A DNA stretch of 23,157 nt, from IMG/VR virus record IMGVR_UViG_3300017727_000170, positions 1-23,157 of that record. One strand, 5' to 3'. The notes below the pieces were generated by a model. The model searched no databases. It worked only from the letters and a program-made list of their open reading frames with translations, and was not told the origin of the DNA. The position numbers were made by a program, and so were the translations under genes. Origin of the DNA: a virus. Below, in pieces: positions 6,820-18,341 of this stretch (positions within the stretch are counted from its first letter, which is position 1; each line of letters opens with the position of its first letter).

Positions 6820-7518
6820 GTGTCTATAGACAACTTTTTAAAGAAGATCGGTAATAGAGGTGGTATTGCTTCAAGCAATAACTTTGATGTGCATTTTTAT
6901 CTAACACCAGAACTTAAAAAAGCGTTGTCGTCATATTTTAAAGAAGAAGATATCAAAATTTTCTGTGATGAGGCACAGCTGCCAAATATTAGCACTGGAA
7001 CTGGATCAATTACTGGAAGATACTTAGGTGAGAGTCAAGTAAACTATGCAACCAGTCGTGTCTTCAGCACATTTCAATTAGGTTGGATGTTAACTGCTGA
7101 TCTACTTCCTCTGAAGTTCATTCAATCATGGAATGATTATATTTTTGGAGAGAATATGTTGTCACAAAAACCAGGAAGTGGACTTGAAAGTATGAGAACT
7201 ACTGATAGATTGAATGCAAAACGTCCAGTTCGACTAGCATACCCCGATGAATATAGATGTAACATAAGGATTACTAAAACTGAAATGGGTCCAGAAAGTA
7301 CACAAGAAAGAGCACCAATCAGTTATGTAATGGAAAACTGCTGGCCTGCAGAGGTTGATGCTGTTCCTCTCTCATATGGTAATACTCAAGTAGTTAAGTT
7401 CACAGCACAGTTCCAATATGAAAGACATTATGTTGTGATGAATGATACTACACAACAAACCTTTAAGCAGGTTGACACCCTCTATGATGAGAACGGACGA
7501 TATATTGGTGTAAGGTAG
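6820..7518 (+). CDS. gp54/gp19-type tail tube initiator or tube-fold protein
   Basis: A 232-aa protein with the GTG start MSIDNFLKKIGNRGG. Features of the gp19-like tube fold are present: FCDEAQLPNISTGTGSITGRYLGESQVNYATSRVF (~49-83), QLGWMLTADLLPLKFIQSWNDYIFG (~86-110), an internal DEYRCNIRITKTEM strand and the late VVKFTAQFQYERHYV strand (~200-214). The 'C..a.lP...i.t....g......A..r....f...f......lk.f..W.d.i' pattern is seen in T4 gp19, gp54 and gp48 relatives. Position beside the baseplate genes and away from the sheath genes favours a gp54-like baseplate cap role over the main tube protein, but this is inference. Confidence 0.7.
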   Translation: MSIDNFLKKIGNRGGIASSNNFDVHFYLTPELKKALSSYFKEEDIKIFCDEAQLPNISTGTGSITGRYLGESQVNYATSRVFSTFQLGWMLTADLLPLKFIQSWNDYIFGENMLSQKPGSGLESMRTTDRLNAKRPVRLAYPDEYRCNIRITKTEMGPESTQERAPISYVMENCWPAEVDAVPLSYGNTQVVKFTAQFQYERHYVVMNDTTQQTFKQVDTLYDENGRYIGVR

Positions 7519-7616: not shown

Positions 7617-8330
7617 ATGTCACTACCGAAGATTGGTTATCCTATTTCTAGTATTACTGTGCCTTCTACAGGCAAAAATATTAAAATTAGACCATTTACC
7701 GTAAAAGAAGAAAAGGTGCTTTTACTAGCATCAGAAGATGGGAACGAAGATGGAATTAAAGATGCAGTTATTGACCTTCTTCAAAACTGTATTACAAGTA
7801 GAGGAGTAAAAATTGAAAGTTTAGCATCTTTTGATTTAGAGTACATTTACTTAAAAATTAGATCTGTCTCTGTTGGAAGCACAGTAGAATTCGTTATTAC
7901 TTGTAGAGATGATGGTGAAACAACTACAACTGTAACAGTAGACCTTGAAAGTGTGGAAATTGAGTTCCCAGAAGGTCATGATAAAAAAATCATGCTTGGT
8001 GACAAGCTTGGATGTGTTATGAAGTATCCTGGAATTGATACTTTTGTTAATGTTTCGCTTTTAAAGAAATTTGAAGAAGATGATGTAATTGACTTCATTG
8101 CAGATTCTATCGATCAAATCTTTGATGAGGATGAAGTATTTGACAGCTCAACTACTACAAAGGAAGAGTTTAAGACATTTGTTGAAAATCTAACCAGAGA
8201 ACAATTCGATAAATTCTCTGAATTTTTTGCAACTGCACCAAAACTGTCTCATACATTCGAGGCAAAAAATCCAAAAACTGGTGTTGTTGATGAATATACA
8301 ATTGAGGGATTATCTAATTTTTTCGGGTAA
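7617..8330 (+). CDS. 26: gp26-like baseplate hub / tail assembly protein
   Basis: A 237-aa homolog of T4 gp26, the T4_baseplate family (PF12322). The family pattern is seen in the N-terminal LPKIGYPISSITVPSTGKNIKIRPFTVKEEKVLLLASE, where 'P....t.lPStg..i..rPf.vkEeK.LL.A.e' is diagnostic, and in CITSRGVKIESLASFDLEYIYLKIRSVSVG (~57-86). It is also seen in the ITCRDDGETTTTVTVDLESVEIEFPE segment. The C-terminal ~80 residues are acidic and helical. The last sense codons before the TAA form a TTTTTTC run followed by a stem (see the frameshift feature). Part of the product may therefore read on into the next small frame, giving 294 aa. In T4, gp26 acts in hub/baseplate assembly. Confidence 0.88.
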   Translation: MSLPKIGYPISSITVPSTGKNIKIRPFTVKEEKVLLLASEDGNEDGIKDAVIDLLQNCITSRGVKIESLASFDLEYIYLKIRSVSVGSTVEFVITCRDDGETTTTVTVDLESVEIEFPEGHDKKIMLGDKLGCVMKYPGIDTFVNVSLLKKFEEDDVIDFIADSIDQIFDEDEVFDSSTTTKEEFKTFVENLTREQFDKFSEFFATAPKLSHTFEAKNPKTGVVDEYTIEGLSNFFG

Positions 8331-8356
8331 GCCTCTTCCATATGTCCTTGGAGGGG
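8304..8356 (+). promoter_or_regulatory. Putative programmed -1 frameshift cassette (gp26 to downstream ORF)
   Basis: The elements occur in order. GAGGG (8304-8308) is an SD-like stimulator about 10 nt upstream of the slip site. The heptamer T_TTT_TTC (8318-8324) is in phase with the gp26 reading frame (codons TTT 8319-8321 and TTC 8322-8324), so both tRNAs can re-pair with TTT after a -1 slip. The gp26 stop TAA follows at 8328-8330. An 8-nt spacer then leads to a stem of C8333-A8340 with T8349-G8356 (8 pairs, two of them G-U) with an 8-nt loop. The shifted frame continues through CGG GTA AGC into the ORF ending at 8500. The layout matches classic bacterial and phage -1 signals; it has not been tested. 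Confidence 0.65.
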
Positions 8357-8500
8357 TACTATAAAACTAATTTTGCTTTGATTCAGCACCATAAATATAG
8401 CTTGACGGAAATTGAAAATTTAATGCCGTGGGAACGAGATGTTTACACTGCATTATTGCAACAATATCTTGACGAACTTAAAAAAGCACAAGAAAGCTAA
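8342..8500 (+). CDS. Small ORF after gp26, probably the frameshift extension of a tail assembly chaperone
   Basis: 52 aa from the ATG at 8342 (MSLEGYYKTNFALIQHHKYS), then LTEIENLMPWERDVYTALLQQYLDELKKAQES. It is in the -1 frame relative to gp26. If entered by frameshift, it adds 58 residues (from codon CGG 8324-8326) to the first 236 of gp26. The 'y.l.ei..mPw.e...y..ll..yl' pattern and location directly before the tape-measure gene match the second ORF of tail-assembly-chaperone pairs. T4 gp51 follows gp26 in T4 but is much larger (~249 aa), so this is not simply gp51. The internal ATG has only a weak, poorly spaced SD (GGGTAAG) and lies in the loop of the predicted stem, favouring the fusion. 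The stop overlaps the next start (TAATG). Confidence 0.7.
   Translation: MSLEGYYKTNFALIQHHKYSLTEIENLMPWERDVYTALLQQYLDELKKAQES
8391..8397 (+). promoter_or_regulatory. Late promoter box upstream of the tape-measure-like gene
   Basis: ATAAATA (context CCATAAATATAG) lies about 100 nt before the ATG at 8500, within the small post-gp26 ORF. The 7-of-8 match to TATAAATA suggests a second late transcript beginning just upstream of the large gene. Confidence 0.5.
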
Positions 8501-11500
8501 TGGCATCGGGATCTTACGCAATTAAAGGTTTACAACTTGCGGACATTAAAAGGGTCTTCAAGGTAAAAGCTAACAGACAGCAGGCAAGAGCAGGTGATGT
8601 AATTAAATTTACAATCACTGCTACTGGTGTTTCTGATAGAACTGTTAGATCTTACTATATTGAAGGGGTTGCTCCAGAGGATCTTGCTGACCAAAAAACA
8701 GGTGGATTGTTTTATCTAAGACAAGGAGAGGCAGAAGTTTATGTTCAAATTGCCCCAGATTATGATAATGATAAAGATGTAGAACTAGTATTTAATGTAG
8801 TTGATAGTAAATCAACTCTATTCAGAATTAAACGTCCTCCACAAGCAAAAGTCCTTATTAAAGGAGATGGAGAACCAAGTCAGGAAAGAGATAGAAAAAG
8901 ATTAAAGGATCAAAATAGAAAAAGAATCCAGCAAGGAAAGGATGGACAATTAACAAGACAAGATCCAATTCAGAGAGTTCGTGTCAGTGAACAGCAACAA
9001 AAAGCACTAAAATATGGAGTAAAACAACTACCTGGAATGCGTCAGAGGGCATTACCTGCTGGAAGACCAAGAGCACTGCCAGGAGTAAGAGCACCTAAGG
9101 CACTACCTCCAGTTGGTGGAATGCCTGCTAGTAGTCAAATTGTTGATATAACTCCTATTAGCAAAAGTGTACGTCCTATGGGTGGATCACTTGCTAGATC
9201 TGGTGGTGGAGCACTTGCTAGATCTGGTGGCGCAGGCGCAATGAGAGGTGTTAGAGCTCCTGGTGCGCTTGGTGTGGCAACTGCTGGAATGGAATTTGGC
9301 AGTAGAATGAGTTCTGGACAAAATGTAGTACAAGCTGGTGCTGGAACTGCTGCTTCTGTTGGTGGTGGAATTGCTGGTATGAAAGCAGGTGCTGCAGCAG
9401 GCGCTGCATTGGGATCTATTGTTCCTGGTATTGGAACTGCTATTGGTGGAATTTTAGGTGGTGTTCTTGGTGGTATGGGTGGATCCATGCTGGCATCTAA
9501 AGCAACAGATACAGTAACTGGTGCAAATCGTCAAGAATTTGCAGAAGGTGGACATATCATTCCTAAAATGACTGATATGCCATTCAATCTACCTGGATTG
9601 AAAGGATCTTTTAATGAACCTGGAAATCCAGAAATGCTTAGTATTACTCCATTGGATGATCCTTTAAAAGCAGCACAATCTATCTCTGGTATTGCAAGTG
9701 CAGCTGGTGGTATGCTCCCTGGTATGGGTATGCTTGGTGGTATTCTCCCTGGTATGGGTATGCTTGGTGGTATTGGTTCTGCCGTTGGTGGTGGTTTAAA
9801 AAATATCTTTGGTGGTAAAGAAAAGGAATATAAAGGTATTGCATCAGCAATTGGTGCAGAAATGGAAAAAAGAGGTATTGGTGATCCACTTGGTTTGAAA
9901 GGTGGTAAATCGTTTGGTAATAGTGTTAGAGACCTCTTAGACAAAATTCCTGGTATCAAAGATATCTTTGGTAAGCGTGATGGTAATACACAAGGTCAAC
10001 AACAGGGTACTTCTCCTGGTGGTGGACAGATGAGTAATGTTGCTGGAAGCACAGCAGAAAGAAATGCTGCAGCATTCTTATCTACCTTAGAAGGCACCAG
10101 TGGACAGAATGCTGCGGATGCTATGCAAGTAATGCTTAATAGAACTGCTGATGCACAAGCAGGTGGTTCTATGAGTGCATACGGATCTACTTTGTTTGAT
10201 CAAATTACAGGCAAAGAACAATTCTCACCATTCTCTGCAGCAATTTATGGAACTAGTGCTGATCCTGATGCTGCAGCAAAATATGGTCCACTAGCGCAGC
10301 AACTTGGATCTAGTCCAGAAGAAAGAAAGCAAAGATTATTACAGATTGCAGGACAACCAGATGGAATGCAGCAATTAGAAAAATTATTTAAGGGTGGATC
10401 TGCATCTGCTGCTGGAGAAGTCCTTAACGATTTTGCCACTGGTGGTTCTTTATCTCAAACAGCTGCTCAAGGTATTGGATCTAAGGTATCCTTCAGAGGA
10501 TATAGTCGAGGTTTACCAGCGGATCGTTTTAATAGAGGAACAGGTGGAAATTATTTCTTCGACAATTCTTCTACAGGTAAAGTAGGTTCACTTAGTGATG
10601 TTTCACAATCACCAGCAATGCAACAACCTCAAGGAGCAGGTCAAACTGTAGTTCTTGCTGGTGGAACAAATAGTGCTGGTGATCCTGTTGGAGCAGGAAG
10701 AGATATGATGAACTCTATTAAAAATCTCAAGGAGAAGGGATACAGAGTTGTTGTAGTTCCACCTAATCAAAAAGAATATCCAGCAGCTTATGGTGCAATT
10801 AAATCTGCTGCTAAAAATGAAGGTGCAATTGTAGAGGAAGGAACTTACGAAATTAGCGATCCTTTGCATCTTACATCACAATTTTCAAGTCAACTTAACT
10901 CTAAGTATGCTGGTGCTATCTTCATGGGAGATAGTAATGCTGCAAGAATTGCTGGAGATCGTGGTTTAAAAAATGTTAGAAGAGAAGGTGCTGGAACTGG
11001 TGAAATTTTACAGCAGGCACAAAAAATGCAAAGAGCACCTGCTGCTAATAATCAATTGAATCCAGGTGTACAGCAGATGAGTTACTCACCATCTGCTGCT
11101 GGTACACAAGCTGCATCAAATGCAGCGGTTCAACCACAAACACCAATGCAACCAACTGCTATGTTGGAGGGTGCTGGAACATTCGTTCAAGGTAATAGTG
11201 GAAGTTCTCGTGGACCTCACTTCCATATTGGACCAGAACAAGAATTATGGGGTAAACCAGAAGGTAAAGCAGAAGTAAGACGTGCATCATTTAAGATCGC
11301 AAAGGCTCTTATTAATAAAGGAGAACATTTCTCGTTTACAAATGCAAATATCAATATTGATCCTAATAATCCACCCGATGATGCAACATTGATGAAATAT
11401 GTTGAACAAGAACAAATAGCTCATGCTGGTAGAGATGGTGGTGGATCTTTTGGTGGTATAGATATTGCTGGAAAACCTGGATTACGATTGCCTCTTGGTG

Positions 11501-11976
11501 TTTCTAATTACAAAGAGTCATCTACAGGATTTGGAAATACTGCAACAATTGCTGGAACTAGAGCATTTGTTGCACATGGTATGACTGGATCTGGCAACAC
11601 TCCTGGTGCAAATGCTTTAGCACCTGGTGCTTCTCCTTCTAATGGTGTACAGTTGATGAGTAATACATCACCAGCAGCACCAGCAGGAAACCCTGAAGAT
11701 TTCTTCAAATTCGCATTTGGTGCTCAAGGAAGGGAAAGTTCATATACAGCACCACCAAACGCTGCACCAACTGCTCTATTAGAGGCATCTTCTAATACAG
11801 CGATGGCATCAGCAGGACCAAAAGTTGCTATTGTAAATAACCCAGTTTCAAATTCAGCCAACGTTAGTAATGGTGGTGGATCTCAATCTCAACAATCAAG
11901 TAGAGGTTCTGATATGTCTGATGCGGGATTACTAGCATATATGGCTAAACAAAGATTATTAACCTTAGGAGCTTGA
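8500..11976 (+). CDS. Tape-measure-like tail protein with SleB-, SGNH- and M23-like hydrolase motifs
   Basis: 1158 aa. Residues ~15-112 form an Ig/Calx-beta-like domain (KANRQQARAGDVIKFTIT). A basic linker follows (~128-155), then an Ala/Gly-rich hydrophobic region (~281-335, with GxxxG runs) and a Gly/Met repeat (~403-425). Residues ~518-690 look like a SleB/Hydrolase_2 cell-wall hydrolase: LSTLEG with candidate Glu531, DAMQVMLNR, GKEQFSPF, GGNYFFDN. Residues ~717-835 carry SGNH motifs in the order GGTN (721-724), DPLHLT (787-792), GDSN (810-813). Residues ~895-1030 carry M23-like motifs: GPHFH (905-909), GGIDIAG (D988), VAHG (H1026). Position after the gp26/chaperone locus, the hydrophobic central region and wall-hydrolase modules fit a tape measure that aids DNA entry. 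T4 gp29 is much shorter (590 aa), so orthology is uncertain. Confidence 0.7.
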   Translation: MASGSYAIKGLQLADIKRVFKVKANRQQARAGDVIKFTITATGVSDRTVRSYYIEGVAPEDLADQKTGGLFYLRQGEAEVYVQIAPDYDNDKDVELVFNVVDSKSTLFRIKRPPQAKVLIKGDGEPSQERDRKRLKDQNRKRIQQGKDGQLTRQDPIQRVRVSEQQQKALKYGVKQLPGMRQRALPAGRPRALPGVRAPKALPPVGGMPASSQIVDITPISKSVRPMGGSLARSGGGALARSGGAGAMRGVRAPGALGVATAGMEFGSRMSSGQNVVQAGAGTAASVGGGIAGMKAGAAAGAALGSIVPGIGTAIGGILGGVLGGMGGSMLASKATDTVTGANRQEFAEGGHIIPKMTDMPFNLPGLKGSFNEPGNPEMLSITPLDDPLKAAQSISGIASAAGGMLPGMGMLGGILPGMGMLGGIGSAVGGGLKNIFGGKEKEYKGIASAIGAEMEKRGIGDPLGLKGGKSFGNSVRDLLDKIPGIKDIFGKRDGNTQGQQQGTSPGGGQMSNVAGSTAERNAAAFLSTLEGTSGQNAADAMQVMLNRTADAQAGGSMSAYGSTLFDQITGKEQFSPFSAAIYGTSADPDAAAKYGPLAQQLGSSPEERKQRLLQIAGQPDGMQQLEKLFKGGSASAAGEVLNDFATGGSLSQTAAQGIGSKVSFRGYSRGLPADRFNRGTGGNYFFDNSSTGKVGSLSDVSQSPAMQQPQGAGQTVVLAGGTNSAGDPVGAGRDMMNSIKNLKEKGYRVVVVPPNQKEYPAAYGAIKSAAKNEGAIVEEGTYEISDPLHLTSQFSSQLNSKYAGAIFMGDSNAARIAGDRGLKNVRREGAGTGEILQQAQKMQRAPAANNQLNPGVQQMSYSPSAAGTQAASNAAVQPQTPMQPTAMLEGAGTFVQGNSGSSRGPHFHIGPEQELWGKPEGKAEVRRASFKIAKALINKGEHFSFTNANINIDPNNPPDDATLMKYVEQEQIAHAGRDGGGSFGGIDIAGKPGLRLPLGVSNYKESSTGFGNTATIAGTRAFVAHGMTGSGNTPGANALAPGASPSNGVQLMSNTSPAAPAGNPEDFFKFAFGAQGRESSYTAPPNAAPTALLEASSNTAMASAGPKVAIVNNPVSNSANVSNGGGSQSQQSSRGSDMSDAGLLAYMAKQRLLTLGA
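9706..9765 (+). repeat. Tandem 30-bp repeat in the tape-measure-like gene
   Basis: Two adjacent 30-nt copies (9706-9735 and 9736-9765) differ at one base and encode GGMLPGMGML and GGILPGMGML. A partial third copy follows (GGIG). This is a short coding minisatellite that could expand or contract in frame. Confidence 0.85.
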
Positions 11977-17969: not shown

Positions 17970-18341
17970 ATGATCAAATCCGCATTCGCAGCTGCCGCTG
18001 CTTTGTCCGTCTCTGCTGGTGCCGCTTTCGCTGGTCCCTATGTCAATGTAGAAGCAAACTCAGGATTTACGGGATCCAGCTACAACGGAACTTCCACAGA
18101 CCTTCACGTAGGTTACGAAGGCGCACTAGGTGAAAGCGCATCATACTACGTCCAGGGCGGCGCTACTGTCGTCTCTCCTGACGGTGGCGAGAGCGACACT
18201 GTTCCTTCTGGCAAGGCAGGTCTTGGTATCGGTTTGACCGAAGCACTGGGTGCATACGGTGAAGTTAGCTTCGTCGGTTCTGGCGACAGCAACATCGACC
18301 GTGGTTATGGAACCAAATTGGGTTTGAAGTATTCCTTCTGA
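17970..18341 (+). CDS. Exported small beta-barrel (outer-membrane-like) protein
   Basis: A 123-aa protein. Residues 1-21 are a clear Sec signal peptide (basic MIKS, hydrophobic Ala-rich core, AFA before the predicted cut). The mature ~102 residues show alternating polar/hydrophobic strands: YVNVEANSG, DLHVGYEGAL, SASYYVQGGATVV, GKAGLGIGLTEALGAYGEVSFVG, YGTKLGLKYSF. They end in Phe, the usual C-terminal signature of BAM-assembled outer-membrane proteins. About six to eight strands could form a small OmpA/OmpX-size barrel. The gene has its own sigma70 promoter, leader hairpins and terminator, and higher GC and host-like codon choice than its neighbours. Roles such as altering the host surface or blocking superinfection are guesses. 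Confidence 0.7.
   Translation: MIKSAFAAAAALSVSAGAAFAGPYVNVEANSGFTGSSYNGTSTDLHVGYEGALGESASYYVQGGATVVSPDGGESDTVPSGKAGLGIGLTEALGAYGEVSFVGSGDSNIDRGYGTKLGLKYSF

Follow-up and report, generated by a model that had tools for sequence, protein, structure and literature searches.

Background

Phage lambda encodes, between its tail tube and tape measure genes, a short protein (gpG) and a -1 extended form of it (gpGT), whose small C-terminal extension is reached by the shift only; the function of the pair is summarised in PMC5009743. The same review lists G-T frameshifting as widely conserved except in T4 (Atkins et al. 2016). Here we analyse a comparable arrangement at gene 26 of a marine T4-like virus, in the 23,157-base virus record IMGVR_UViG_3300017727_000170. 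This record, which is a fragment, is called the window below, always at its full length.

Papers that cite Vladimirov, Gautam and Davidson 2022 (Virology 566:9) indicate that gp26 and gp51 were already named tail assembly chaperones (TACs) there, as TAC-N and TAC-NC respectively. According to one of them, on PRFect, some T4-like phages have a short gene and a fused long gene, with no frameshifting (PMC10885494); according to another, on phage Adele, poly-T frameshift signals are known in the TAC-N genes of T4-like phages (PMC12846349). In Vandenendeviridae / Andersonviridae (phage Adele), TAC-N carries near its 3' end a conserved poly-T signal for a -1 frameshift, of the same kind as the one analysed here but with another motif, GTTTTT, and in other phage families (PMC12846349). 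Among cyanophages (S-PM2, S-RSM4, P-SSM4, Syn1), the gene named gp51 is the same open reading frame (ORF), in the same position, as the -1 frame described below, and is conserved in Kyanoviridae. It has about 20% of the length of T4 gp51 (Sullivan et al. 2010, PMC3037559); we read it as the -1 tail of a fusion. The six-frame proteomic data of that study are from virions, in which no chaperone would be expected.

An initial annotation, drawn from the letters of the window alone, had left open whether frameshifting at this gene was already described in T4-like phages. The citing papers place it in the 2022 article, and by their account the finding, well supported as it is, is mostly already described. 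Since the core claim was apparently made then, the value added here lies in breadth and in tests, not in first discovery.

A slippery site at the end of gene 26

The elements of the locus, all on the + strand, are the following:

7617..8330, + strand: gp26, 237 amino acids, the putative unshifted short chaperone (TAC-N, lambda gpG-like); Pfam PF12322, E 1.3e-61; PHROG 150; T4 gp26 aligns to this part only
8304..8308, + strand: Shine-Dalgarno (SD)-like GAGGG, probable stimulator; 9 nucleotides between it and the heptamer
8318..8324, + strand: slippery heptamer U_UUU_UUC in the gp26 phase, read from the sequence; in-phase U_UUU_UUN in relatives
8328..8330, + strand: gp26 stop codon UAA, one codon past the heptamer, read from the sequence
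8333..8356, + strand: hairpin, 8333-8340 with 8349-8356, 8-nucleotide loop, candidate clade-specific stimulator; intact in near loci
8318..8500, + strand: -1 frame extension (TAC-C, lambda T-like; database name gp51); PHROG 634, E 2e-24; ratio of non-synonymous to synonymous polymorphism (pN/pS) given below

The 3' codons of gp26, from 8304, are GAG GGA TTA TCT AAT TTT TTC GGG TAA. The -1 frame is open from 8318, directly after a -1 stop at 8315-8317, and is closed by a TAA at 8498-8500, overlapping the start codon (ATG) of the next gene. It corresponds to the ORF that annotations of other phages call gp51, 'baseplate hub assembly catalyst'. With 294 amino acids, the fusion is encoded by join(7617..8324, 8324..8500). 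An 8-nucleotide spacer behind the heptamer is followed by CTCTTCCA (8333-8340), which can pair with TGGAGGGG (8349-8356) at 8 positions, two of them as G-U. The initial annotation had reported an in-phase T_TTT_TTC one codon before the gp26 stop and a 294-residue product in place of one of 237 residues, and was accurate on both; the 8-pair stem and the upstream GAGGG, which it put at about 10 nucleotides, are also present in the window.

We propose, at a probability of about 0.94, that this virus makes a short and a long tail assembly chaperone from gene 26 by -1 programmed ribosomal frameshifting at U_UUU_UUC. Most ribosomes would stop at 8328 and release gp26 (TAC-N), while on the two Phe codons a minority would move back by one base and go on to complete the gp26-gp51 fusion (TAC-NC). 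The slip may be aided by the upstream SD-like GAGGG and, within the window's clade, by the hairpin. On the model of lambda gpG/gpGT, a coat of many short and a few long copies would form on the tape measure protein that the next gene encodes; tail tube subunits would be recruited by the helical domain at the C-terminus of the long form. The slippage itself, its rate and the chaperone role are what we infer. The likeness to lambda has its limits: gp26 is larger here, no sequence similarity was detected between the systems, and the virus is a contractile-tailed relative of T4. The heptamer, U_UUU_UUN, is also unlike that of lambda, G_GGA_AAG.

Conservation of the site and of the -1 frame

We gathered 271 sequences (IMG/VR contigs, named phages and the window itself) and ran an unconstrained hidden Markov model (HMM) search over their stop-to-stop ORFs, six frames each, using one profile for gp26 and one for the domain encoded by the extension (T domain). 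Removal of identical stretches left 208 distinct loci, including a diverse subset of 117; these loci are related by descent and the counts are not independent events. Vibrio phages are represented by PG216, the KVP40 region having been retrieved without a gp26 locus, and a scan of viral contigs seeded with D485 found no relatives.

The six-frame search found 257 T-domain ORFs outside gp26; every one of them is in the -1 frame, and the +1 frame holds none. The loci with no T domain outside gp26 are either cut by a contig end or members of the T4-type two-gene group. An in-phase U_UUU_UUN stands within the overlap in 205 of the 208 distinct loci, 7-31 nucleotides ahead of the gp26 stop, as UUUUUUC (129 loci), UUUUUUU (70), UUUUUUA (5) or UUUUUUG (1). 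The codon before Phe-Phe, which may encode Asp, Ser, Asn, Thr or other residues, has T as its third base in all 117 diverse loci where codon usage predicts 67, and the first Phe is TTT in every one of them, against 74.5 predicted. At the level of sequence, the T-ending codon and the TTT reflect codon choice, not protein constraint.

The position of the stop varies: it comes immediately after the heptamer in 39 loci (for example L055:2196-2205), as in U_UUU_UUC_UAA, and gp26 extends eight codons past the heptamer in 18 others.

The same architecture is found in Emmerichvirinae, Schizotequatrovirus, Menderavirus, Emdodecavirus, Pootjesviridae (with UUUUUUG) and Pseudomonas phage Milchi. Other Straboviridae, namely Aeromonas phages 65 and avDM6 and Vibrio PG216, have the frameshift arrangement as well. 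For the window's gp26, 567 phage records give matches that cover 80% or more.

Relation to gp26 and gp51 of T4

Searches of T4 gp26 and gp51 against the fusion by blastp gave nothing convincing, and profiles were needed. We built a profile of 296 positions from the 117 fusions and compared it with gp26 and gp51 of T4 and other phages. T4 gp51 aligns to positions 24-280 of 296, covering both domains (E 3e-13), whereas T4 gp26 aligns to positions 10-236 only (E 8e-26), the match ending at the slip point. The gp51 proteins of Aeromonas 31 (E 3e-21) and Klebsiella (E 1e-11) match the profile too, and T4 gp51 and T4 gp26 are mutually homologous (hhalign, 98.5%). T4 gene 26 ends in AAA GAG TTC TTT GAG TTA CTA TAA, with neither a slippery site nor a T domain downstream. 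This, together with the profile homology, implies that T4 carries the short and the long form as two genes. The two systems thus correspond domain by domain, T4 gp51 consisting of the short domain plus the T domain; they differ in that T4 and its close relatives have two separate genes, where the window has a single gene with a frameshift. Since T4 gp51 resembles the fusion and T4 gp26 its unshifted part, gp26 would be the short, gpG-like chaperone and gp26-51 the long, gpGT-like one. The sequences show directly the site, its phase, the open -1 frame and selection on both, as well as homology between the fusion and T4 gp51 and between the short form and T4 gp26.

The two T4 genes probably derived by duplication. 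Phage records whose gp51-like match spans 80% or more of T4 gp51 number 1,334. The 23 kb record, as the fragment it is, holds only one gp26-family gene, with a -1 extension, and the T4-type two-gene arrangement was not encountered in it. In a small tree with long branches, the six sampled T4-type gp26 and gp51 proteins stand on one side of a branch (97/96), which is compatible with one duplication. Given its broad spread, the frameshift arrangement is by parsimony older than the two-gene form. We consider it fairly likely that poly-U frameshifting is ancestral in the T4 superfamily, has been kept in hundreds of phages over several families, and was lost once, in T4 and its closest relatives, by a gene duplication after which one copy (gp51) took up the -1 domain by in-frame fusion and the other (gp26) lost it. 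The T4 group would then be a clean natural example of gene duplication apparently taking the place of a frameshift. The split into two genes would explain why the 2016 review lists T4 as the exception to tail-chaperone frameshifting, and the frameshift why the cyanophage 'gp51' looked like a fifth of a protein in 2010.

Tail assembly or baseplate hub assembly

The gene order in the window (tail tube, gp26, -1 or gp51 domain, long ORF) is the same as V-G-T-H in lambda. The flanking genes are:

6820..7518, + strand: tail tube protein gene; Pfam PF23849 (Phage_TTP_2), E 1e-58; PHROG tail tube, E 4e-40
8500..11976, + strand: long ORF of 1158 amino acids, putative tape measure protein; position directly after the chaperone, weak PHROG matches

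AlphaFold2 produced a confident model of gp26 (predicted local distance difference test, pLDDT, 89.5) and predicted three helices for the T domain (pLDDT 80.0). Foldseek searches with the gp26 model returned gp26-family viral models; the matches of the T domain, none of which reached significance, included proteins annotated as a chaperone of tail assembly or of the tape measure. A sequence search of solved structures with both domains gave no match.

Could the frameshift be real and its products serve otherwise, for instance in the baseplate hub assembly after which the genes are named in T4? T4 genetics calls gp26 and gp51 hub assembly chaperones (PMC3004832), and no solved structure matches our proteins significantly. 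On the other side, the short/long pair, the gene order and the -1 shift all fit a lambda-type chaperone system, the papers that cite Vladimirov et al. 2022 class these genes as tail assembly chaperones, and the T4 hub defect could itself reflect a failure to chaperone the tape measure gp29, a hub component. We regard a role other than tail assembly as unlikely. The initial annotation had already proposed a -1 frameshift producing a tail assembly chaperone pair, and this proposal gains support from the conserved site, frame and domain, from the gene order and from the full-length match of T4 gp51 to the fusion. The comparison of T4-like relatives that it suggested came out in its favour, with the in-phase U_UUU_UUN and the -1 frame kept beyond chance.

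Selection on the extension and internal start codons

Among near relatives, the sequence 3' of the slip has a pN/pS of 0.19 when read in the -1 frame; read in frame 0 it gives 1.4, and in frame +1 it gives 3.0. Three further clades give -1 frame values of 0.14-0.26. As judged from these ratios, four separate clades show purifying selection on the extension that is confined to the -1 frame.

Alternatively, gp51 could be a separate small gene with its own start, such as AUG 8343, translated independently or coupled after the gp26 stop, the overlap and the poly-T being incidental. AUG 8343 does lie in the window's -1 frame, the first 13 codons after the slip contain an ATG in 75 of the 205 loci, and separate gp51 coding sequences (CDSs) are annotated in public records. 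However, ATG, GTG and TTG are all absent from these 13 codons in 90 of the 205 loci, so that an independent start cannot supply the T domain in general; as a general explanation we rejected it on this ground, the window being among the loci that have a candidate AUG. An own start also fits poorly with the synonymous constraint on the in-phase poly-T, with the covalent fusion of both domains in T4 gp51, and with the constraint in the -1 frame on the codons between the slip and AUG 8343 (pN/pS 0.54 versus 7.6 in frame 0, on few codons). We hold this explanation to be very improbable.

Candidate stimulatory elements

A GAGG occurs within 18 nucleotides upstream of the heptamer in 49 of the 117 diverse loci, versus 23 +/- 4 in synonymous-codon randomisations. 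Judged by this enrichment, the SD-like element is real but not universal, as it is seen in under half of diverse loci. GAGGG also codes for a conserved Glu-Gly.

Of 35 near loci, 26 have the hairpin with all 8 pairs intact. Where near-clade loci encode the Leu-Phe-...-Leu-Glu-Gly peptide, the first Leu is CTC in 27 of 27 (usage 6%) and the Gly is GGG in 27 of 27 (usage 8%), both at synonymous hairpin positions. Changes in the stem are mostly one-sided, for example C-G to U-G or U-G to U-A, with little compensatory change, and a test of covariation against shuffles showed no excess.

Transcriptional slippage on the T run, in which RNA polymerase adds or drops a U and the ribosome does not slip, seems very improbable as the source of the fusion: T runs are a possible substrate for polymerase slippage and a run of at least six T is present in all 205 loci, but in 129 of these a C ends the run at six T within the heptamer, whereas RNA polymerase usually requires a longer run to slip efficiently, and the SD-like enrichment and clade-specific hairpin suit ribosomal stimulation.

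Exceptions to the general pattern

Several results weigh against the proposed ribosomal frameshift or its link to tail assembly. In Ackermannviridae L095 (2465-2501) and L096 (2420-2459), Serratia phage 3M and Erwinia phage Bue1, the T domain is in the -1 frame and the sequence reads CAG GTT TTC / CAG ATT TTC, without the canonical heptamer. In the marine contig L084 (2170-2200), G_UUU_UUU replaces U_UUU_UUN and the -1 T domain is kept. These exceptions imply that not every locus needs the exact heptamer. Beyond the window's clade the hairpin is not kept in register, and it was rejected as a general element for this reason; other folds occur there, with a modest overall structure excess (fold z-scores modestly low). 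In a Foldseek search of the PDB with gp26, the highest-probability match was the HK97 tail assembly chaperone 2ob9, at 0.60 but with an E-value of 1.5, which is suggestive at most.

The identity of the gene at 8500-11976 is weak as well. Its PHROG tape-measure and tail-lysin matches are weak and fall within a Gly/Ala-rich N-terminal half, and it has no Pfam match; a profile of its N-terminal part matches the next gene after the chaperone in other phages. T4 gp29 showed no usable similarity to the window's downstream genes, so that we infer a putative tape measure from position and weak similarity.

Annotation and gene neighbourhood

Several hundred public T4-like genomes hold the locus, for which a joined frameshift CDS is the fitting annotation. 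In the public genomes that we inspected, the two halves bear the names of unrelated hub proteins, or the second half is missing from the annotation. The T-domain ORF, though conserved in the -1 frame, has no annotation or an incomplete one in several records, among them KF156338 (L003:2172-2348) and NC_015251 (L085:3205-3369).

The window contains a T4-like gene set comprising PhoH, gp32, gp53, a gp48-like cap, gp2, gp4, the tail tube, gp26 and gp27/gp5-like hub proteins. The product of the gene after the chaperone differs strongly between close relatives. Just 3' of the hub genes, the gene at 17970-18341 encodes an outer-membrane-like beta barrel of the cyanophage type (PF24653, E 3e-50).
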